Of a stretch of DNA of 38,282 nucleotides, positions 2,354-16,416 are shown piece after piece. A model generated the notes under the pieces. That model worked only from the letters and a program-made list of their open reading frames with translations. It was not told the DNA's origin and searched no databases. This DNA comes from a virus. The position numbers were made by a program, and so were the translations under genes. The stretch is from the IMG/VR virus record IMGVR_UViG_3300047409_000130, positions 1 to 38,282 of that record; one strand, 5' to 3'. The number at the start of each line of letters is the position of its first letter. The first letter of the stretch is position 1.

Positions 2354-5300
2354 TACGCGAACTCCTCGCATGCGCGGGTCACGGTCCACAAGCCCGCCGG
2401 TTCGACCTGATGCTCCTCGCGCATCACGATGTACTCGCCGTTGCGGTGCAGCGAGGCCGTGAGGTTCAGCACGAAGTCGTCCTGGAGGTCGATCCCGAAG
2501 ATGGCGCTGTAGTCGCTGCCGACCGGATCTCCGACGAGCATGATCCGCGGCCGGGCGTGCTGGTCCTTGTAGCGTGCCACCTGCAACGGGCCGAGAAGGT
2601 CGGGGATGGTGCGGTCCGCGAAGAACAGCGCGCCGTCGATGACCGAAGGGGCCGGTCGGACGCCCTGCGTGCCCACGCTCTGGCCGTCGCTGTCGCCGTA
2701 GTACTCCGTGCCCGTGGCGTGGGTCACGGCGACCAGGTTGATGATCTGCTGGCGCTCCACGTCGAGGCCGGGCGAGCCGAGGACGTCCGCGCCGGAGACG
2801 GTCGCGACGCTCGCCTTCGACTGGAACGTCGTCCGGTCCTCGGTGCAGATCTGGTACCACGGGGCCACCGTGAGGTACTTGATCCACATTCGGGAGCCGG
2901 TGAGCTCGTTGATCTTGAGCATCGCCGCCAGCGCCGATCCGGTGAACGTGGCCGTCGTGGCGTAGGTATCCGTCACCTCAGCGCCGGTCGCGAGGTTCCA
3001 CTGCGCCATCTCGAAATCGTCCGCAGGCGCCGGGATGACGCGCGGGCCGCCGACGTGGATCGTCACCCCCGAGGCGGCCGTGTGGTAGACGAAGAACATC
3101 ACCTGCCACGGCTGGGTGGAGGCGTAGTCCGCGCTGGGCGTCCACGACACGGTGATGTCGCCGGTCCCCGACGTCGTGCCGGTCGTGGCCGCCTCGTCGT
3201 ATGTCCCGTCGCCCTTGTTGGCCGAGATGCCGACCTTGTACGCGCCGAAGTTGTCCGTCCGCACCTTGAACGAGTAGGTGACACCGGCGACGAAGGTCGG
3301 GGCGTTGAGCCCCTGCTGATAGAAGTCGTAGATGAAGCCCGAGTTCGCGACGGCGGTCGTGGTGCCGACGAGCGACGAGCCGCCGTAGATCGTGGTCGCC
3401 GACGTGACTGCCACGGATGAGGACAGCGGCACACCGCCGCCGCCCGGCCCTGAGTCCACATATCCCGAGGATGTGGACGCAAGCGTGTCGCGCAGGAACA
3501 CGTACGCGCCGTCGATCGAGTAGGTGCCGTTGGTGTCCCAGCGGACGAAGAACTGCGCGTCCGTCCGGTTCGAGGCTGGCACCCACGTCAGCGGTGCCGT
3601 GGTGTAGGACGACGTCACGCCGACCGACGTGAACGCGGCATCGCCCGTCGTCCCTGCCGAGCCGATGCCGAATGTCCCCGTCGCCGAGCCCGACGACTTC
3701 TTCCAGGTGATCCCGAAGTCGTACGTCCGGCCGCTGATGAACGTGCCGGTGATCGCGAAGAACGCCCCGGCGTCGGTCGTGTTGATGACGACGTCGGCCC
3801 GTGACGACGCGAAGAAGCCACCGGAGCCGACGCGCGTGATGGACAGGGCATTCGCAGTGAACGCGCCGCCCGTGATCGCCCAGCCCGAGGTATTCGTCTC
3901 GAACGAGCCGTTCGTGATGAAGTTCCGGAAGGCGTCGTAGTAGCCCGCCGGGTTCGACCCGACCTGGCCGTCCCATGACGAGTTGCCGACGAGGTTCCGC
4001 CAGCGCCCGGTGCCGAGGTCCGAGTACCCGTAGAGCGCCGCGCCGCGGGTGACCGACGCGCAGTCGATGTTGACCGTGCCCGCGCCCGTCGACTCGACCC
4101 ACAGGATCAGGCCCGGCGATGCGGGCGCGTCCGCCGTCATCTTGTAGGTGACGCTGAACCGTCGCCAGTCCGTCGTCGTCGTGGTGAAGCTGAGGTCCGT
4201 CCCGAGAACATTCGGCCCGAGCCCGACCCGCCACGACGTGGACCCGGACACACCGTGGAGGAACACAGATCCGCGGTAGACCTCGCCGTCGAAGTACATC
4301 GCCCCGAGCCGGGCGCTGATGTAGGCGCGCTGGCCGGAGCCTGACGCGATGAACTGCGCGGACGCTGTGCCGCCGAGCGGTGCGTAATCCGTGGTGATGC
4401 GGGTGAGCGACGTGCCCGTCTGCGTCCAGTTCGCCGTGTCCGTCTCGAACGAGGGGTTGTGGCCGACGAGGTTGAGGTTCCCGCGCTCGAAGTCCTCGAG
4501 GGCCGCGATGCGTGTCTCCCGCGCGCTCCGGCTGAGTGACAACACCGGCACGATGACGTCCGTCTCGGAGTAGCGCCGCAGCGGGTCGAACATCGTGACC
4601 GTCGCGAGGTTGCTCACCGGGTCTAGGCGGATGTCCTCGATGAACCCGTAGAAGCGGCCGTAGTCGGTCGCTGCATGGGTAGCCGTCCACTGGACAGCCT
4701 TCCCCGAGACGAGTTGCCCGCGCGATGGCCCGTCCAGGTACGTGTTCTCGGACGATCCCGCGTTGAACTGGATGCAATCCACGCGCAGCGTCGCCACGGC
4801 CGCGGTCGTCGTTCGGACGAAGAGCACGACATCGGTTCTGTCCGCGGTTGCGGTGAACGTGAACGGGTAGTTCGCCCACGACGTGGTGATGTCCGAGGAG
4901 GTCGAGCCGATGTTGGCGACCGTGCCCGCCGCCGCCGCGCCCGCGCGGACGTGGAGGTTCCCCGAGATGGACTTGAGCCAGAACGATCCCGAGTAGGTGA
5001 CGCCGTTACGGATCCGGTACGGGAAGGCGAACGTGACGCCCGAGTTGTTCGTCCCCGTCAGGACGATCGACGCCGCCTTCGTGCCCGTCCCTGTCGCGTG
5101 GTCCGATACCTGCGTGATCGACGTCGCCGCGACGGTGAGGCCCGACACCGCGAGGACCGACCAGCCGGACGTGTCGTATTCGAAGGAGGGGTTGTCGCAC
5201 TCGTTCCGGAAACGGGTGAAGTAGCTGTCGTCGTTGCGGAAGACCATCGTGCAGTCGCCCGTGGCCTCGCCCGAGTAGTCGCCCGTGGCTCCCTTGTTCT

Positions 5301-7727: not shown

Positions 7728-8258
7728 CGGGCAGCGCCTCCGACACGGCCATGATCTCCATGAGCAGGCTCACGTCCTGGCGGTTCACGGCGTCGGGGAG
7801 GATGCCTCGGTCGGCCCACCAGCGGTAGAACTTCGCCGCTTCGCCCGTCGCTCGGTTCGCCCGGCGCGGCCAGTCCGCCGGGCTTCCGCCAAAGGGACCG
7901 GCACCGTGCCGATGGAGGTGAACCACGTCCGCACGACCGCCACGATCAGGTTGAGGTCCACGAACATGATCCCCTCGGCGGTCGCGGGGACAGGCTCGCC
8001 ACGCTTCGGGCCGTAGGCGTGGGTCAGGTTCCACGCGATGAGGCCGTTGTCCACGAAGAGCGTCGCCAGTTCACGACTGGCGTTGAGTCGCTCCTCGCCC
8101 GTCTCGGGATGGTCGTAGACCTCGGCCCACTGCTTGAACGCGAAGTAGACGCCGGGTGAGAGCGTCAGGCGCGTCCGGATCTCCGCGCCCGCGAACGGGC
8201 CGTCCTCGATGGTGAGGACGCCGGTCGCCTCGGGGATCTTGTAGTCGGATGCCGTCAT
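7717..8258 (-). CDS. Tail assembly chaperone, -1 frameshifted long form
   Basis: Shifting -1 at C CCT TTG (7896-7890) joins the first ~123 codons to a second frame ending at 7717, giving about 180 residues. The extension (AKFYRWWADRGILPDAVNRQ, then DVSLLMEIMAVSEALPDAQ) is a typical gpT-like chaperone C-terminus and has no plausible start codon of its own. The tape-measure ATG at 7727 lies inside the extension. The family is known to use this frameshift; its efficiency here is unknown. Confidence 0.85.
7785..8258 (-). CDS. Tail assembly chaperone, short (unshifted) form
   Basis: A 157-residue product starting at ATG 8258 behind a GAGGGG ribosome-binding site. The first ~120 residues are a coherent domain (MTASDYKIPEATGVLTIEDG, later LTLSPGVYFAFKQWAEVYDH). 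The last ~35 are Arg/Thr/Ser-rich and read like an out-of-frame tail, as expected for the short partner of a frameshifted pair. It lies between the major tail genes and the tape measure, the fixed location of the lambda gpG/gpGT equivalents that load the tape measure and recruit tail-tube subunits. Confidence 0.85.
   Translation of the reverse strand: MTASDYKIPEATGVLTIEDGPFAGAEIRTRLTLSPGVYFAFKQWAEVYDHPETGEERLNASRELATLFVDNGLIAWNLTHAYGPKRGEPVPATAEGIMFVDLNLIVAVVRTWFTSIGTVPVPLAEARRTGRAGRTERRAKRRSSTAGGPTEASSPTP
7890..7896 (-). other. -1 ribosomal frameshift slippery heptamer CCCTTTG
   Basis: On the minus strand the heptamer is read C CCT TTG in the upstream frame, exactly the X XXY YYZ form. After the -1 slip the tRNAs re-pair on CCC TTT and translation continues GGC GGA in the extension frame. 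Confidence 0.85.
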
Positions 8259-8310: not shown

Positions 8311-8688
8311 CTACGTCCAGGCGACCGCAGTCCCCGACGACAGCTCGTAGTTGCACGAGCCCTTGAGCGAGCCGTCCGTGCCGAGGTTGAGGGAGTAGTT
8401 CGTGGTGACGGCGGTGAAGGTCGCCGTCGCGCCCGGGTAGGCGATCACGAACGTCTTGGAGCCGGGCACCTTGAGCGTCGCGTGGAGGTGCGAGCCCGCC
8501 GTGTTGTGGGTGAAGTTGATCGTGCCCTTCGCGTCGGCGCGGAGCAGGATCTTCTCCATCCCGCTCTTGTCGAGGCCGGTCACGTCCTGCACGCCGTAGG
8601 GCGTGTCAAGGGTGATCGAGTCGATGTCATTTGACAAATCGTTGCCCGCGATAGTCACGGTCGTCGTAATTCCCGAGACTTTTGCCAT
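8311..8688 (-). CDS. Major tail protein paralogue (small, 125 aa)
   Basis: A 125-residue beta-rich protein. Its first ~50 residues align by eye with those of the next gene upstream: both begin MAK-x-SG, contain a D-I-x-S-I/L segment and share D-V-T-G-L/I-D-K-S-x-x-E-K-I. It reads like a compact tail-tube or tail-decoration domain (TATFTAVTTNYSLNLGTDGS). The ribosome-binding site is AGGAAGGGAC before ATG 8688. Which of the two paralogues is the tube subunit is not decided by sequence; this one could be a second tube component or a decoration protein. Confidence 0.75.
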   Translation of the reverse strand: MAKVSGITTTVTIAGNDLSNDIDSITLDTPYGVQDVTGLDKSGMEKILLRADAKGTINFTHNTAGSHLHATLKVPGSKTFVIAYPGATATFTAVTTNYSLNLGTDGSLKGSCNYELSSGTAVAWT

Positions 8689-9939: not shown

Positions 9940-10352
9940 GCCAGCCCCTTCGTCAGGTCGGTCTTCTGGCGCTTCGTGGCCCGCGACGTCCGGTTGAAGG
10001 CGTGCGTCCGGCGCTCCACCTCGGAGGCCGCGGCGTAGAGCGCGGTCGCCTGCTTCGCGTCGAGGCCGGAGCGATCCGGGCTGATGACGCCGTAGTAGTG
10101 CCACGGCTTGCCGGAGAGCGACGCGACGCGACCGCGGATGTACTGCGAGACGCGGGCGTTCGGCCCGATGGCGCGGATCGCAGAACGGCGGCCTTCGCCC
10201 GCCTCCACCTGCTGCCGCACGTCGGCCGCCATCAGCCCGACCGTCTCCTCGAGGAGGTCGCGGATGTTGGCGGCGAGCGTCTTGGCCGGATCCTTCTGGA
10301 AGAACGGCCCCGAGAAGCTGACCTGCGCGGACGTGCCTGCTGGTCGGCCCAT
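9936..10352 (-). CDS. HK97 gp10-like head-tail/neck protein
   Basis: A 138-residue protein starting at ATG 10352 (TGATG overlap with the connector gene). It has a long helix (AANIRDLLEETVGLMAADVR) followed by a region with RVASLSGKPWHYYGVISP and a basic C-terminus (RRTHAFNRTSRATKRQ). The pattern and position fit the HK97 gp10-type neck/tail family. Longer upstream starts would run into the connector gene in another frame. Confidence 0.7.
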   Translation of the reverse strand: MGRPAGTSAQVSFSGPFFQKDPAKTLAANIRDLLEETVGLMAADVRQQVEAGEGRRSAIRAIGPNARVSQYIRGRVASLSGKPWHYYGVISPDRSGLDAKQATALYAAASEVERRTHAFNRTSRATKRQKTDLTKGLA

Positions 10353-10984
10353 CAGACGAGCCGGTCTACGAGCGTGTAGCCGCGCAGCGTCTCGCGGTCG
10401 CGCGGGGAGATGAGCCGCGACAGCCACATCGGGCCGCCCTGGTCGGTGCCGTCCACCTGCCCGCTGCCCATCTGGCGGCCGGTCCATGCCGTGACGGCGG
10501 CGGCGTTGGCGAGGTCCACGATGTCGTCAGGCTCCACGGCCCAGCCCGCGGTCGCGGTGATGCGGACCGTGCCGTAGCCGGGCGGGAACGCCGTGAACAT
10601 GCCCGTCGGGTAGTCCGTGAAGAAGAGCGCGTCGTACGGCGCTCCGGTTTGCGAGCGTTCGCGGAGGAAATACTGCGACGAGTCCACCGTGACGTAGGCC
10701 GACGACGTGTATAGCGCCATCTCGAGGAGCGTGATCGTGCGGATGCCGCCGATGGGCGTGCCGTCGGCCGTCACCGGCAGGTACAGCCGCCGCCCGGCGT
10801 CGCCGTCGTACAGGTAGGTCGCGGACGGGATCGGCGCGAGGATGCGCCCGGTCATCCGCTCGATCGCCATGTTGACCTGGTCGCAGATGCCGTCGATGAT
10901 CACGTCCTCGCCGGTCGAGAACGTGCCGCCGATACGTGCCTCGACGGTGCCTCTGGTCGCGTACGTCCCGGTGGCTGTGGGCAT
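10352..10984 (-). CDS. Head-tail connector (gp6-like adaptor)
   Basis: A 210-residue protein with the usual adaptor plan: N-terminal helices (TVEARIGGTFSTGEDVIIDG, later AIERMTGR), a beta-rich middle (TYLYDGDAGRRLYLPV), and C-terminal helices (VDLANAAAVTAWTGRQM) ending in ETLRGYTLVDRL. It binds the portal and completes the neck. A CGGAG ribosome-binding site lies 9 bases before ATG 10984. It is the first gene of the connector/tail block after the interruption by two rightward genes, so it probably has its own promoter or relies on read-through on the minus strand. Confidence 0.8.
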   Translation of the reverse strand: MPTATGTYATRGTVEARIGGTFSTGEDVIIDGICDQVNMAIERMTGRILAPIPSATYLYDGDAGRRLYLPVTADGTPIGGIRTITLLEMALYTSSAYVTVDSSQYFLRERSQTGAPYDALFFTDYPTGMFTAFPPGYGTVRITATAGWAVEPDDIVDLANAAAVTAWTGRQMGSGQVDGTDQGGPMWLSRLISPRDRETLRGYTLVDRLV

Positions 10985-11055
10985 GGGTCAATGCTCCGTT
11001 CGGGGCGTGGCGGAATAAAGGCGGAAAAGCGGCAGGAATGCGGAAGTCTCGCCTA

Positions 11056-11074
11056 TTGACACGGGTGCTAGCGT
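11056..11074 (+). promoter_or_regulatory. Possible promoter of the rightward two-gene insertion
   Basis: TTGACA at 11056-11061 is a perfect -35 hexamer, but no good -10 lies 16-18 bases on. TGCTAGCGT at 11066-11074 matches an extended -10 (TGnTAnnnT). At least one promoter must lie in this 181-base gap for the rightward genes. Which element is used cannot be told by eye. Confidence 0.4.
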
Positions 11075-11106
11075 GCGAAGTGGCTGAGTTGGAGCCGCTT
11101 TCACAT

Positions 11107-11160
11107 GCCCCGGTCGGTGCCAACTCCACGGGCCGGGGCTACCCTTTTTCGAGGAGTTGG
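11107..11160 (+). ncRNA. Candidate pseudoknot leader RNA occluding the ribosome-binding site
   Basis: Stem 1 is GCCCCGG (11107-11113) with CCGGGGC (11133-11139). Its 19-base loop contains CCAACTCC (11120-11127), the exact complement of GGAGTTGG (11153-11160), which overlaps the GAGGAG ribosome-binding site of the gene at 11166. Both stems together form an H-type pseudoknot that would hide the site. GAGTTGG at 11086-11092 can compete for the same loop. The hairpin followed by CTTTTTC could alternatively act as an intrinsic terminator. No known riboswitch class is recognised. Confidence 0.5.
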
Positions 11161-11165
11161 CTCGA

Positions 11166-11720
11166 ATGGAGAACTACGAGGTCGAACTGACCGGGATCGC
11201 GCCCGTGATGTTCAACAAACCGACGGCGTCTGCGATCAGAGGGCTGAACCCCGGCCAGAAGTCGGCCAAGCGTGAGGACGCAAGTGGGCGCGAGGAGGAG
11301 GCGATGGAGCGCCTGTCGTACCTCGCTGACGGCACGATCTCCGCAGGCGCGCGCCAGATCAAGCGCGCGATGCTCGACGGCGCCACGCTCGGCTCGATCA
11401 AGATCGGCCGCAAGGGCGCGTGGCCCTTCATCAAGGCGACCATCGTCGTCACGGACGGCTCGTTCGGCGTAGAGAAGCCCGACCGGATCGTTGAGGACGT
11501 GGTACGCATCCCGCCGCGGACTGGCGGCCTCATTCTCAAGGCGTGGCCCGTGCTCGACGCGGGCTGGCGGCTTGCCTTCCGGCTGACGCTGCTGCAACCA
11601 GCGGTCCTCGGGCCTAGCGTCGCGCGGGCTGCGCTCGACAACGCGGGGCTGCTCGCGGGACTCGGCACCGGGCGACCAGAATATGGACGGTTCACGGTCA
11701 CGAAGTGGAGCAGGGAGTAA
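11166..11720 (+). CDS. Rightward insertion protein A, possible RAMP/Cas7-like fold (unknown function)
   Basis: A 184-residue protein on the strand opposite to all surrounding structural genes. It opens with a strand and a G-I-A-P-V-M-F-N motif (ENYEVELTGIAPVMFNKPT), has a charged middle (KREDASGREEEAMERL), a Gly/Arg/Lys-rich centre (IKIGRKGAWPFIKATIVV) and closes with GLGTGRPEYGRFTVTKW. The opening GxxPxMxN and closing GLGxxRPxxGRF patterns resemble small proteins I associate with RAMP/RRM-like folds of Cas7 type; this is a tentative impression, not a family match. ATG 11166 is chosen over TTG 11157 because GAGGAG lies 9 bases upstream. Followed after 3 bases by protein B. Confidence 0.7.
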   Translation: MENYEVELTGIAPVMFNKPTASAIRGLNPGQKSAKREDASGREEEAMERLSYLADGTISAGARQIKRAMLDGATLGSIKIGRKGAWPFIKATIVVTDGSFGVEKPDRIVEDVVRIPPRTGGLILKAWPVLDAGWRLAFRLTLLQPAVLGPSVARAALDNAGLLAGLGTGRPEYGRFTVTKWSRE

Positions 11721-11723
11721 CCG

Positions 11724-12050
11724 ATGCCAAGGCAATACGACGCCACGGATCACGTCCGCCAGCACATGACGGAGGCCGCGGACGAAGGGGCGCTCTATAT
11801 CCGCCGCCTTCTGCGGGGCGAGATTGAGAACACGAAGGACACGCGCGAACTGGCGACTCAGGCACGCGCCGCGCTGGGCTCCTTCACCCGCTACGAGGCC
11901 ACGCTCTCGGCCCGTGATCAGACGGCGGTCGTCGTCTCCAAGATGCTCGCTGGCGACAACGTTGACGAGTTCCGCAAGTACATCGCGGCGTCGATGCCGG
12001 ATCATCCGGCTATCCGCGTCGTTGATCTGGCGCTCGCAAGCGGCGAGTAG
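11724..12050 (+). CDS. Rightward insertion protein B (helical, unknown function)
   Basis: A 108-residue, apparently all-helical acidic protein (TDHVRQHMTEAADEGALYIR, then TRELATQARAALGSFTRYEA). No family recognised. It begins 3 bases after protein A with its own GGGAG ribosome-binding site, so the two are one transcription unit and probably act together. With protein A it forms a moron-like unit inserted into the morphogenesis operon. Confidence 0.7.
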   Translation: MPRQYDATDHVRQHMTEAADEGALYIRRLLRGEIENTKDTRELATQARAALGSFTRYEATLSARDQTAVVVSKMLAGDNVDEFRKYIAASMPDHPAIRVVDLALASGE

Positions 12051-12199
12051 ACAGGACGCGCCGAGGCTAGGCCATCCCGGACCAGACAGGACAGGCTGCA
12101 CTTATCTGACCATCGGAACAGGACGTGGGCCATTACGTGGCTTGACCGGTCTTGCCGAGGCTTGGCAGGGCGAGACATGCCATGACAGGACAGGACTCC
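12051..12199. repeat. Non-coding spacer with two imperfect ~100-base repeats
   Basis: GCCGAGGCTAGGC (12060-12072) and GACAGGACAGG (12085-12095) recur in the same order as GCCGAGGCTTGGC (12154-12166) and GACAGGACAGG (12184-12194); further GACAGGAC-like copies lie at 12050 and 12117. This gap separates the stop of rightward protein B from the stop of the leftward zinc/HTH gene. A two-sided transcription terminator would be expected here, but no long GC stem with a T tract was seen. Confidence 0.6.
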
Positions 12200-12517
12200 T
12201 CATCCGAGGCTCAACCGCTTCCGCCACTCGCGCACCGTCCGGGGTGAGCGGTCCACCTTCTCGGCAATCGCCTCGACCGTAACGGGCTTGCCGTCCTCGC
12301 GGAGTTCGTCCACGGCGCGGGTGTAGGCGAGCCGAACCGCGTCCTCATCGAGCGTCGGACGGCCCTCCGCGACACGGGGTGCGTCGAGGCCGCGGTGCGC
12401 CCACGCCTGCTCCGGATCCCGGCCGCAGTTGCCGCAGCGTGGCGGCTCCGCGACGCGCCCGCACCAGCCGCACTGGACGCGGTACGTGCCGCCGGGCGGG
12501 ATCGCCGTCGTCTCCAT
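12200..12517 (-). CDS. Zinc-ribbon plus HTH protein
   Basis: A 105-residue protein with two CxxC pairs (CGWCG at about residue 18 and CGNCG at about 29) forming a zinc ribbon. A C-terminal HTH (VTVEAIAEKVDRSPRTVREW, then RKRL) follows. ATG 12517 overlaps the preceding stop as TGATG. It is the last gene of the glycan cassette before the rightward insertion and could be a regulator, or a small terminase-like DNA binder, which is otherwise missing from this genome; neither is established. Confidence 0.7.
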   Translation of the reverse strand: METTAIPPGGTYRVQCGWCGRVAEPPRCGNCGRDPEQAWAHRGLDAPRVAEGRPTLDEDAVRLAYTRAVDELREDGKPVTVEAIAEKVDRSPRTVREWRKRLSLG

Positions 12518-13041
12518 CACCAGACGAGCTCCACGCCCGCACGTCCCGCGACGGCAATGGCGCGCTTCGCGGCCTCCATGTAGCCGGTGTCGCCGTCGTC
12601 AATGAGTTCGCTGCCCACGACTCGCCGCGTGTCACCGCGGAGGACGTCGAACCCGAACATGCGGATGCGCCCCGCACCGCGAGCGATGGCGAACGCCACG
12701 GCGACGGGAGCCGACTGGTAGAACCACGGCAGCCCCATCTCCTCGACGTCGAGGACGATGCGCGGTGCCCACGCCGGTCGGCAGTGCCGCGATTCCATGT
12801 GGCTGAGGACGAGCGTGCCTTCCGGTGCGAGCGCGCAGTCGTGGCCGGGGCCGAGGAGCGTGCCGTGAGGGAGGCCGATCCCGCAGCCGTCCTTGAACAT
12901 CGAGAAGATCGGGCTCGGGAGGTCAAGCGCGCGGACCTGGTCGATGGACTGGTTCAGCGTGATGACCGGACCCGGGCCGAAGTCGTCGGGCGTCAGATCG
13001 AGCAGCGACGGCCCGCGGCCGACGATGTGCCAGTCAGCCAT
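12517..13041 (-). CDS. MptE/DUF115-like protein of the glycan cassette
   Basis: A 174-residue protein opening MADWHIVGRGPSLLDL and continuing DDFGPGPVITLNQSIDQV. A G-x-G-P-S-L turn followed by a strand ending in N is typical of the Rossmann-like DUF115/MptE-type proteins and of some phage sialyl/glycosyltransferase-like enzymes. Near the C-terminus are RIRMFGFDVLRGDT and DTGYMEAAKRAI. It overlaps the SpsF-like gene by 8 bases. Likely role: a step in making or transferring a sugar; the reaction is not known. Confidence 0.6.
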   Translation of the reverse strand: MADWHIVGRGPSLLDLTPDDFGPGPVITLNQSIDQVRALDLPSPIFSMFKDGCGIGLPHGTLLGPGHDCALAPEGTLVLSHMESRHCRPAWAPRIVLDVEEMGLPWFYQSAPVAVAFAIARGAGRIRMFGFDVLRGDTRRVVGSELIDDGDTGYMEAAKRAIAVAGRAGVELVW

Positions 13042-13780
13042 GCGCGACTCGCTCCTGCGCGCCGGCCCACCAGTACTGGCGGATGCTCGCGTTGATCGCC
13101 GCCCACTCGGGGTGCTCATCGAGGACTTCGATGATGTCGCGGATCGGCATGTCGGGCTGGCGCGGGTAGAGGTACTCGATCAGCGTCCGGTGCATCTCGA
13201 AGTCGGCCGCCTCGTCCACGGTGAAGCGGTACGGGCGGTTGAACCCCACCGGCTCGTCGATCTCGACGCTCGGGTACCGCTCCGGCCGGCGCTCGAACCA
13301 CGGCAGCGTGTGCTCGCGCTCGTCGTCGTCGGTCGCTTCGAGGTAGCCGTCCTTGAGTCCCTTGCGGCTGACGATGTGCGCGTTGAGGCCGAGCGGCCAG
13401 CCGCGCGAATGGACGATGCCCGCGCCGCCCTGCGCGAAGCGGTCGAAGCAGGTGTCGAACACCTCGGCGTCGAGGAGCGGGTCATCCGCCCCGCCGAGGC
13501 CGATCATCTCCGCGCCCATGAAGTTCGCCGCCGCGAGGTTCCGCGACAGGAGGTCCGTCGGGTGCCCGCGGACGCACGCCACGTCCATCTGCACGCACAG
13601 GTCCGCGATGGGATCGTCGGCGTCGTCCCACGTCGTGGCGATGCACAGTTGCGCCCGCAACGACTGCGTGAGGCGGTCGATCTGGTAGGCGAGCATCGGA
13701 CGGCCGAGGATCGGCATCAGCGTCTTGCCGGGCAGCCGCGTCGAGGTCATGCGCGCCTGGACGACGATGGCCGCTACCAC
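13034..13780 (-). CDS. SpsF-like cytidylyltransferase/nucleotidyltransferase
   Basis: A 248-residue protein. After a GTG start at 13780 (overlapping the GT2 stop) it reads VVAAIVVQARMTSTRLPGKT and LMPILGRPMLAYQIDRL, the nucleotide-binding signature of the SpsF / CMP-NeuAc-CMP-Kdo synthetase superfamily; DPLLDAEVFD supplies a metal-binding acidic region. These enzymes activate acidic or amino sugars as CMP (or other NDP) derivatives. In a run with two glycosyltransferases and a TagD-like enzyme it probably makes the sugar donor. The substrate cannot be read from sequence. Confidence 0.8.
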   Translation of the reverse strand: MVAAIVVQARMTSTRLPGKTLMPILGRPMLAYQIDRLTQSLRAQLCIATTWDDADDPIADLCVQMDVACVRGHPTDLLSRNLAAANFMGAEMIGLGGADDPLLDAEVFDTCFDRFAQGGAGIVHSRGWPLGLNAHIVSRKGLKDGYLEATDDDEREHTLPWFERRPERYPSVEIDEPVGFNRPYRFTVDEAADFEMHRTLIEYLYPRQPDMPIRDIIEVLDEHPEWAAINASIRQYWWAGAQERVAHG

Positions 13781-14493
13781 AGCCGCGCCGCCCGCTTCGC
13801 CGGGTCGGGGCGGACGTGCGACAGCGGCACGTCGGAGTCCCACGGCGTGTCGAACGCCTCCCACGTCGGGCCGCCGCCCCACTTGGCGTGGTACTCGGCG
13901 CGGTTCAGCGCGAACGTCCGGGTGTTCGCCTCCGACATGGCCGCGTCGCTCTTGATGGTGACGGAGCCCTCCAGCCCATCGTCGCCGTGGCGGATGTCGC
14001 CGTCATACGGCAGCCACTCGATGCCCGCGAGCTTGCAGCGCCGCTCATAGTCGTCGTCGTCGAAGTAGATCGGGTAAAAGGCGTGCTCGTCCATCAGCCC
14101 CACGGCCCGGACGGTGGCGACGTTCAGCGCGCCGTACGCCCACCGGAGCATCCGCGAGTCGTTCCGTGTGCCGGTGACGACGCGCGGCTCCGCGGTGCCG
14201 TTCATACGCGAGGAGATGGCGGCGAGGTCGTCTTCACCGAACTCGATGTCGACCGATGCGAACAGCCACCACGGCGCGGCGGGCGTCTGCATGATCCCGG
14301 CGTTGATGCCGCCGGGGTAGCCGAGGCCGGTGATCGGACGGATGTACTCGGCGCGCGGGTCCGAGACGGTCGCGCCGGAGCAGGAGTTGTCCACGATGAC
14401 GAGCCGCTCGACGGGTTCATCGAGGGAGCGGATCAGCCGCTCGAGGAGGTCGAACCGCGACACGGCCGGGACGATCAGCACCGGAATGGTCAT
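13774..14493 (-). CDS. GT2-family glycosyltransferase
   Basis: A 239-residue protein starting at ATG 14493 (ATGA overlap). It has the GT-A opening of family 2: TIPVLIVPAVSRFDLLERLI, VERLVIVDNSCSG, then GLGYPGGINAGI, and an acidic ASVDIEFGEDD in the place of the DxD metal site. The later region contains YPIYFDDDDYERRCKLAG, common in GT2 rhamnosyl-type enzymes. Predicted to be cytoplasmic; transfers a sugar from a nucleotide donor to a phage structural protein or host glycan. The acceptor is unknown. Confidence 0.85.
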   Translation of the reverse strand: MTIPVLIVPAVSRFDLLERLIRSLDEPVERLVIVDNSCSGATVSDPRAEYIRPITGLGYPGGINAGIMQTPAAPWWLFASVDIEFGEDDLAAISSRMNGTAEPRVVTGTRNDSRMLRWAYGALNVATVRAVGLMDEHAFYPIYFDDDDYERRCKLAGIEWLPYDGDIRHGDDGLEGSVTIKSDAAMSEANTRTFALNRAEYHAKWGGGPTWEAFDTPWDSDVPLSHVRPDPAKRAARLW

Positions 14494-14918
14494 GCCCGCA
14501 TCGCCTCGCGGACCATCGTCGAGCTGATTCCGTCGGTGTACGGCACGTAGAAGATCTGGATGCCCGCCGCGTCGAGTTCCTCGGCCGTGAGGCCCAGCTG
14601 CGCGAGGTAGTCGCGCCCCTGCCAGTCGGAGCCGACGACGATGGCGTCCGGTGCCACCTCGAACACGACGTTCGCCGGGGAGCCGACCGTCGTCTGGTCG
14701 TTCGCTACCACGGCATCGACGAAGCGGCAGGCGCTCACGACCTCGATGCGCTGCTGGAACGGGATGACCGGCGCGTGATGCTTGAACGCCTCCACGAACT
14801 CGTCCGTGTTCACCGCCACGGTGATAGAGCCGTGGCCCGCGATCCGGCGGCAGCGCCGGAGCAGGTTGACGTGTCCGACGTGCCAGAGGTCGAACGTGCC
14901 GAGCGTGAGGACGTTCAT
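14490..14918 (-). CDS. TagD-like cytidylyltransferase
   Basis: A 142-residue enzyme, about the usual length of glycerol-3-phosphate cytidylyltransferases. It opens MNVLTLGTFDLWHVGHVNLL with the HxGH nucleotide-binding motif and ends with GISSTMVREAMRA, the I-S-S-T-x-x-R motif. The family transfers CMP to a phosphorylated alcohol or sugar (for example CDP-glycerol) or AMP/CMP to related substrates. ATG 14918 overlaps the preceding stop. It probably supplies an activated donor to the neighbouring transferases. Confidence 0.85.
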   Translation of the reverse strand: MNVLTLGTFDLWHVGHVNLLRRCRRIAGHGSITVAVNTDEFVEAFKHHAPVIPFQQRIEVVSACRFVDAVVANDQTTVGSPANVVFEVAPDAIVVGSDWQGRDYLAQLGLTAEELDAAGIQIFYVPYTDGISSTMVREAMRA

Positions 14919-15148
14919 CCGGCGACCGCCGGGTCGTAGGGCGTGACGCCGTTGTCTGCCAGCCATGTCGCACAGGCGTCGCGCATGGCGGTGGCCTTCG
15001 CGAGGTCCTCGTGGAGTCTCACGAGTTCGGCTGTCTGCTCGTTGACGGCCTCCACGAGGTGATCGACATCTCGCTGTTGTCTGTCGAGTTGGCGCTGCAT
15101 CGCCCGATGCGCCATGTGTTCCGGGGTGATCACGTCGTCGTCGTTCAT
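14915..15148 (-). CDS. Small coiled-coil protein in the glycan cassette (77 aa)
   Basis: A 77-residue protein overlapping its neighbours as ATGA on both sides. Residues 12-58 form one amphipathic coiled coil (HRAMQRQLDRQQRDVDHLVE, then AVNEQTAELVRLHEDLAKAT) followed by DNGVTPYDP. No family recognised. It may be an assembly or scaffold factor for the cassette, or a small virion component. Confidence 0.65.
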   Translation of the reverse strand: MNDDDVITPEHMAHRAMQRQLDRQQRDVDHLVEAVNEQTAELVRLHEDLAKATAMRDACATWLADNGVTPYDPAVAG

Positions 15149-16416
15149 CCGGCCACCTTCAATCGACGCCGCTGCTCGCGGTTGAGGCGCACCGGCACCT
15201 CGGACGCCATCTCCTCGAGGATCGGCTTCCAGTCGCGCTCGAACACGCGGTCGGCCCGGTAGTCGGCGGCGCGCTCCTGCGCCGCCTTCCGCCGCTCGTC
15301 CCAGCGGCCCTTCTTCCACTCCTCGTACGCCCGTTCGAGGGCGATGATGATCTGCGCGATGGAGGGCTTGCCGTAGTCGGCACCCTGGCGCGGATCCCAA
15401 TCGGGGTCGCAGTAGACGAGCCAGCCGTTCGGGTACTCGGCCGACGCCATGTCCTCCCAACTCCATGCCGTGCCGCGCACGAGTTCGGCCTGCGCCGTCC
15501 AGTTCGACGCGATGACGGGCACGCCGCACGCCTGCGCCTCGATGACGGGGATCCCGAAGCCTTCGCCGCGCGAGGTGGCGAGCAGGAGGTCGAACGACGA
15601 GTAGATGCCCGCCATGTGCTCGTCGGTGATGGAGTGCTTCTTGAGCGCGTACTGGTCGGCCCACATCACGCGGTCGGCCGGGATCTGCTTCTGGCCGAGC
15701 AGCGACGGCAGGTCCATCGCGTTGAAACCGCGTTGCAGCGTGTGGAGGTAGACATAGGCGTCGGAGTGGCGGCCCATGAACACGGCCAGTGCCGTCGCCA
15801 TGTCACCGAAGCCCTTGCGGTCGTAGGTCAGGGTGTCCGTGTTGGCGGCCACGATGCCCACGAGGAAAGCATCGTCGGGGACGTCGATCGCCTCGCGGAA
15901 GTCCGACTCCACCGGCCGGTAGACCGGCTCCACGGCGTGCGGCGCGTATCGGACCTCGAACGGCTTCTGGCCCGCAGTGACGAGGCTGTCGCGCAGCTCC
16001 ACCAGCCGGTCGTAGCCGTACCTGCTCATGGCGATGGCGAGGTGCGAGTTGACGAGCCACTGGTGCAGGACGATCGGGACCGGGAAGTGGTCGATCGGGA
16101 TCCAGCCCGCGACGCGCGGCACGCCCTCGAACGGGTCGCGCATCCCCTGCGTGTAGACCCATGCGTCGTACAGGCTGATGACCCAATCCGCCTCCGAGCG
16201 TTCCAGATCCTCGCGGATGCTGTCGCGCGAGTAGCGGTCGGTGCCGGATGAGCCGCGGACGAGCAGCCCTTCCCACTGCTGGTCGCCCCGCGTGCCGTCG
16301 TTCGCGACGAACTCGATGTCGTGGCCGGCCTTCGCGATCCGTCGCCCCACCTGCCGCGTCTGTGAGCCGTACCCCGACGGTGCCCACGGCGCATTAGAAA
16401 TCCATAAAACGTTCGT
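15145..16416 (-). CDS. GT4-family glycosyltransferase with apparent ACG start
   Basis: About 423 residues. The C-terminal half carries the GT-B/GT4 signature: EGFGIPVIEAQACGVPVIAS, with the E-x7-E pair. The first ATG or GTG-type codon in frame is GTG 16350, but the frame is open further upstream to a TGA and encodes NVLWISNAPWAPSGYGSQTR, a conserved GT4 N-terminus. That stretch starts at ACG 16416, six bases after GAGGGGAG, exactly where an ATG is expected. I therefore extend the gene and take ACG as a rare start, or a T-to-C difference in this sequence. First gene after the capsid gene and its hairpin; head of the glycan cassette. Confidence 0.8.
   Translation of the reverse strand, partial: TNVLWISNAPWAPSGYGSQTRQVGRRIAKAGHDIEFVANDGTRGDQQWEGLLVRGSSGTDRYSRDSIREDLERSEADWVISLYDAWVYTQGMRDPFEGVPRVAGWIPIDHFPVPIVLHQWLVNSHLAIAMSRYGYDRLVELRDSLVTAGQKPFEVRYAPHAVEPVYRPVESDFREAIDVPDDAFLVGIVAANTDTLTYDRKGFGDMATALAVFMGRHSDAYVYLHTLQRGFNAMDLPSLLGQKQIPADRVMWADQYALKKHSITDEHMAGIYSSFDLLLATSRGEGFGIPVIEAQACGVPVIASNWTAQAELVRGTAWSWEDMASAEYPNGWLVYCDPDWDPRQGADYGKPSIAQIIIALERAYEEWKKGRWDERRKAAQERAADYRADRVFERDWKPILEEMASEVPVRLNREQRRRLKVAG

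Follow-up and report, generated by a model that had tools for sequence, protein, structure and literature searches.

VIPR systems, as set out in the main text of a 2026 preprint (PMC13142463), are phage-borne units composed of a Vipr protein, an accessory gene (vap) and small vrRNAs. According to that text, vrRNAs consist of 9–16 repeats of a constant GGY triplet and a variable dinucleotide (GGY/NN) followed by a 3′ tail, are read with a one-base skip, and repress the transcription of competing phages, while the definition admits GGY/NN or a related consensus. Its authors distinguish seven types and six vaps, with Escherichia phage SUSP1 as the type II prototype (PDB 36pp), and describe a mode of DNA recognition that RNA guides through a non-contiguous code and that they propose as a root of CRISPR. 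Here we analysed the 38,282-base record of an uncultivated phage (IMG/VR record IMGVR_UViG_3300047409_000130, referred to at its full length as the window) and found a small inserted cassette that in all likelihood belongs to the VIPR systems. What is new is not categorical, in that the cassette would represent a distant branch with a dedicated helical accessory and an altered constant triplet. Its features are as follows.

11166–11720, + strand: protein A, the putative Vipr, a RAMP/Cas7-like single-RRM protein of 184 aa (ATG to stop; based on phrog_4652, profile, structure model with fold search, and tree)
11724–12050, + strand: protein B, the putative clade-specific Vap, 108 aa with four predicted helices (ATG to stop; based on homologues beside Vipr and structure model)
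12050–12099, + strand: candidate vrRNA-1 guide tract, 10 pentamers with constant G-N-Y and variable NN
12100–12138, + strand: 39 nt that may form the 3′ tail of vrRNA-1, placed by their position between the tracts
12139–12198, + strand: candidate vrRNA-2 guide tract, 12 unbroken G-N-C-N-N pentamers
11040–11165, + strand: the gene pair's own leader (sequence, RNA fold and loop pairs)
10985–12199, no strand: the complete insert of 1,215 bp, flanked by g12.2 and the head–tail adaptor gene

The ATG of protein A lies about 10 nt behind an AGGAG ribosome binding site, and the TTG start at 11157 given by the ORF tool is unneeded; GC content by codon position (.66/.51/.86) is gene-like. The protein contains the motif GIAPVMFN and a C-terminal glycine-rich loop (G-loop), GLGTGRPEYGRF, and it matches phrog_4652 over its whole length (E 8e-7), a family of unknown function in PHROGs v4. 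Pfam yielded no match for either A or B. The AlphaFold2 (AF2) model of A (pLDDT 75.6, pTM 0.72) was compared with the PDB via Foldseek, and all 50 matches listed were class 1 CRISPR backbone proteins (Cas7, Csm, Cmr, Cas7-11, Cascade), the best of those listed being type VII Cas7 (8z4j; E 3e-7); the TM-score to proteins of this class is only ~0.55–0.6. By its model, protein A has a RAMP/Cas7-like fold.

The link to Vipr came from profiles. When all PDB sequences were searched with a profile built from A and the four relatives nearest to it, SUSP1 Vipr (36pp) was the sole significant match (E 9e-12), and the Vipr of one relative (L188) reached the same structure on its own (E 5e-9). Because of this clade profile match, together with the published description (PMC13142463), we connect phrog_4652 to Vipr. 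In a tree of 60 rows, the window clustered with L188, L191, L199 and L272 (support 98/91, identities 31–38%), while identity between A and type II-like Viprs amounted to ~20–24%. At the limits used, protein searches with A found no match in a set of 50,697 named phage records, and GTDB genomes gave none either. In the same phage records and at the same limits, the Vipr of L191 and the B protein of L272 found no match either, and the Vipr of L188 matched solely distant Viprs. A profile scan with a further alignment (A2) gave nothing usable, the alignment being too divergent.

Behind the gene pair, the spacer 12050–12199 shows an identity of 0.50 at lag 5, compared to ~0.2 at most other lags and to 0.26 ± 0.04 in dinucleotide shuffles (z 6.3). 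Nowhere else in the 38 kb does a lag-5 window score as high as in its two blocks. The first block reads GACAG GACGC GCCGA GGCTA GGCCA TCCCG GACCA GACAG GACAG GCTGC, and the second GGCTT GACCG GTCTT GCCGA GGCTT GGCAG GGCGA GACAT GCCAT GACAG GACAG GACTC. The second block is the only run of at least seven GNC pentamers in the genome, with 2.0 bits of information at G and at C and 0.2–0.5 in the other columns; a tail behind it, if any, would overlap the antisense end of the gene at 12200–12520. Over the 22 units, the middle base of the constant triplet is A in 10, G in 6, C in 5 and T in 1, making the triplet mostly GAC or GGC and GRC-like on the + strand. Three of the elements that define VIPR can be named in the window: a small RAMP homologue that is related to known Viprs and has a G-loop and an RRM core, a minimal locus of vipr and vap, and arrays of 10 and 12 GNC/NN units, for which the definition provides as a "related consensus".

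Period-5 arrays are also found elsewhere in the family. Through L002 it could be traced to Felixounavirus (including SUSP1), to Pseudomonas LESphi2 and Medea1, and to phages of Gordonia, Mycobacterium and Listonella, and YNNGG pentamer arrays occur in the flanks of homologues. Among 173 Vipr loci, a lag-5 identity of at least 0.5 beside vipr was found in 88%, compared to 8% for lag 4 and 32% for lag 6; away from vipr, lag 5 gave 13%. At a threshold of 0.6, these four values were, in the same order, 58%, 0%, 2% and 3%. A DNA motif scan for the G-loop returned 120 stretches, nearly all of them Viprs, with more than 110 Vipr loci from one scan. Within the clade of the window, the constant triplet varies from member to member: RGC (L272), GGC (L199), NGC (L188), NAC (L191, weak) and GNC (window).

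Further observations were made on related loci. In L272, two long RGCNN arrays at 4995–5165 nearly adjoin each other, leaving hardly any tail in between, and might be of an overlapping "staggered" type. The AT-rich relative L002 carries GTTNN arrays, another altered constant triplet, both before vipr (7940–8000) and in the stretch from vipr to the following gene (8545–8620), ending in a shared TTTTGCTACGCTATTTTTTTAA. In Gordonia and Mycobacterium phages, hairpins that resemble a tRNA T arm (GGTTCGA..TCC) and have an acceptor-like stem lie scattered among the vrRNA-like arrays (L005 6610–6840; L056 5720–5920 and 7150–7440; L057 5820–5965) and are a possible tail or processing element. Viral contig L215 has two Vipr genes (1144–2052 and 3537–4337), and in many metagenomic viruses (several of L020–L055) A and B are directly followed by a ~295-aa PD-(D/E)XK-like protein, Cas4/RecB-like by look, beside 2–6 pentamer arrays.

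Protein B starts 3 nt past the end of A, and its GC content by codon position is.69/.45/.81. Its AF2 model (pLDDT 86.4) consists of helices at residues 7–30, 38–76, 80–90 and 95–106, and searching the PDB with this model gave no match below E 0.001. There was no significant Pfam or PHROG family for B, the weak PHROG matches being to head proteins at E 0.14 and worse, and a similarity search found nothing in the 50,697 named phages at the limits used or in viral contigs. A homologue of B nevertheless adjoins Vipr, on either side, in five of five clade members (window, L188, L191, L199 and L272), and because of this constant presence we count B as a vap. Judged by sequence and model, it would define an accessory family with no relative found outside the clade. 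The original prediction, made from the DNA letters, had proposed a coupled rightward pair in which A bears the two motifs given above and recalls RAMP/Cas7 folds and B is all helical, and each of these points was borne out. In other phages, cassettes of the same family sit at unrelated genome positions.

The pair also has its own leader, as had been proposed along with the repeat-filled 3′ spacer. The leader contains an extended –10-like TGCTAGCGT at 11066–11074, followed by two hairpins (11080–11139) in a region (11080–11145) that folds at –34 kcal/mol (z –2.6). The 7-nt loops of these hairpins, GAGTTGG (11086–11092) and CCAACTC (11120–11126), are perfectly complementary, and CCAACTCC can pair alternatively with GGAGTTGG over the Shine–Dalgarno (11153–11160). 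It is possible that this alternative pairing of CCAACTCC makes the leader a switch on vipr translation. We treat the switch as a lead, because complementary loop pairs are not rare here (the GC-rich genome has 81 listed for its + strand) and are not conserved, being present in only 3 of the 172 vipr leaders examined.

Proteins A and B are encoded rightward inside a leftward late operon, and both neighbouring genes read leftward.

12200–12520, – strand: g12.2, right neighbour of the cassette, zinc-ribbon/helix-turn-helix (HTH)-like by sequence
10352–10984, – strand: head–tail adaptor, left neighbour of the cassette (phrog_442)

The genes for the major head protein, portal and large terminase subunit (TerL) lie among those to the right of the cassette. 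Relatives were fetched via TerL, with 57–74% identity for most loci listed. In three of them (L124, L132 and L114), the distance from the g12.2 homologue to the adaptor is ~10, ~10 and ~51 bp, respectively, compared to 1,215 bp in the window, and none of the 40 TerL-related records (many of which are fragments) contained a Vipr match. Given this empty site, A, B and the repeats are a single inserted and separately oriented cassette. The original prediction of two rightward genes in a leftward operon thus stands, with support from third-position GC. It had also placed them next to a glycan cassette, but the gene immediately to their right, at 12200–12520, does not belong to the glycan genes, and the inserted cassette proper extends over ~11.0–12.2 kb. 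Sugar-nucleotide and glycosyltransferase genes occupy 12520–16350 on the – strand, in the interval from the major head protein to the adaptor, including an HldE-like nucleotidyltransferase (phrog_7878) and a glycosyltransferase (phrog_2170), and part of this block also occurs in relatives L128, L133 and L134.

By analogy with the published systems, the cassette would be read as follows. Small RNAs would be transcribed from 12050–12199, and Vipr would polymerise on the vrRNA, each protomer gripping the constant G-N-C and displaying the two variable bases. Protein B would assist DNA binding or filament assembly and might, speculatively, be a Cas11-like partner lining the filament, a comparison for which no fold match was found. 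The complex would seek double-stranded DNA that matches successive dinucleotides and leaves a single base unread after each, for which the predicted protospacers are AGnGCnGAnTAnCAnCGnCAnAGnAGnGC (vr1) and TTnCGnTTnGAnTTnAGnGAnATnATnAGnAGnTC (vr2), and once bound it would block transcription without cleavage; its target would most likely be another phage, or a satellite, competing within the same host. We consider it very likely that the cassette is a VIPR system carried by a tailed phage as cargo, and its best reading is a vrRNA-guided DNA-binding repressor acting against competing mobile elements. A role in conflict between genomes, as originally suggested, is therefore still the best reading, whereas the accompanying statement that no described system fits does not hold: VIPR (PMC13142463) fits closely, and the possibility that the repeats are guide RNAs had been overlooked.

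Several observations weigh against this assignment. Protein A alone reaches SUSP1 Vipr (36pp) at just E 0.019, and the arrays of L188 and L191 are modestly above shuffled maxima. A strict chain test for YNNGG (GGY) fails in the window, where the middle base is G in 6 of the 22 units as counted above, and because GNC is its own reverse complement, the arrays were assigned to their strand from the excess of purines at the middle position and from the rule observed at other loci. The candidate tail of vrRNA-1 folds no better than shuffles (z 0.15; nested folding), no conserved tail structure was seen and Rfam gave nothing relevant, while neither a sigma-70 promoter consensus nor a terminator consensus was found in the cassette. 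Finally, IMG/VR, the related records and a local scan yielded no convincing target. The last nine dinucleotides of vr1 had no exact match in IMG/VR, neither vr1 nor vr2 had a target at up to 3 mismatches in the 40 related records, and the local scan of the window stayed at permutation level. A nine-dinucleotide core of vr2 did match 14 homologous contigs in IMG/VR, from a virus with a GC content of 0.4; we dismiss this as chance, since the adjoining dinucleotides mismatch, GC and virus differ, and by our own estimate ~1–3 chance matches are expected in a collection of that size. A TerL search for the host in GTDB genomes gave no match.

The loose middle base, the one TCCCG unit, the missing target and the unrecognisable tail would all suit a Vipr-derived system that is inactive or decayed, in which A still folds as a RAMP protein while degenerate repeats no longer guide. 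We regard this as unlikely, given that 12 GNC units run unbroken with full information at G and C, that the open frames are intact with strong third-position GC and all G-loop residues kept, and that similarly altered triplets recur in related loci. It is more improbable still that the repeats are DNA sites or an RNA scaffold for A, serving autoregulation or RNA protection. Their position directly behind the genes and the possible translational switch in the leader would be in line with such a function, but the variable dinucleotides differ between units and between loci, as guides should, and the homologues described in the main text of the preprint use their repeats as guides (PMC13142463).

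An ordinary morphogenesis or connector gene pair, inverted by chance, could explain why the cassette adjoins the head–tail adaptor and why the weak PHROG matches of B are to head proteins. This explanation was rejected and is hardly credible in view of the RAMP fold of A, whose model is not that of a neck or decoration protein, and of three relatives in which these flanking genes enclose no cassette. Vipr homologues, which usually adjoin a second small gene, are moreover not structural genes, and their genome positions differ widely. Several of their cassettes lie in or opposed to virion operons (in LittleE between tape measure and tail genes, in phiHSIC beside the head–tail adaptor, in Medea1 and Ecliptus in the tail region), while others are found in early, replication and integrase regions of unrelated phages.

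Within the preferred VIPR reading, the five-member clade might constitute a type beyond the seven described, with a relaxed triplet (GNC, AGC, NAC or GGC, depending on the member) and a dedicated helical subunit, a proposal that we make tentatively and hold to be somewhat doubtful. The label "variant" rests on differences in code and accessory from the systems of the main text. If the clade is such a further type, the guide code would be shown to evolve in its constant as well as its variable part. With a distant branch of this kind, one can test which elements of the code the protein itself fixes, and the repertoire of small DNA binders that can be programmed is enlarged. The G-loop motif scan makes the family easy to map in metagenomes.

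Compared to the class 1 CRISPR backbone (Cas7, Csm3, Cmr4; 8z4j), protein A shares the RRM/RAMP fold and the glycine-rich loop, whereas the cassette holds only A and B, with neither a CRISPR array nor further cas genes, and its repeats have a period of 5 rather than a repeat–spacer layout. VIPR of SUSP1 differs from the window in its constant triplet (GGY instead of G-N-C), in its accessory, which is winged-helix-like by its sequence and unrelated to protein B in sequence and fold searches, and in its vrRNA tail, which was not recognised in the window. In common with SUSP1, on the other hand, the window has a single small, phage-borne RAMP homologue with a G-loop, an adjacent accessory gene, and intergenic arrays of constant-triplet/NN pentamers on the vipr strand, with 10 and 12 units here compared to the published 9–16.
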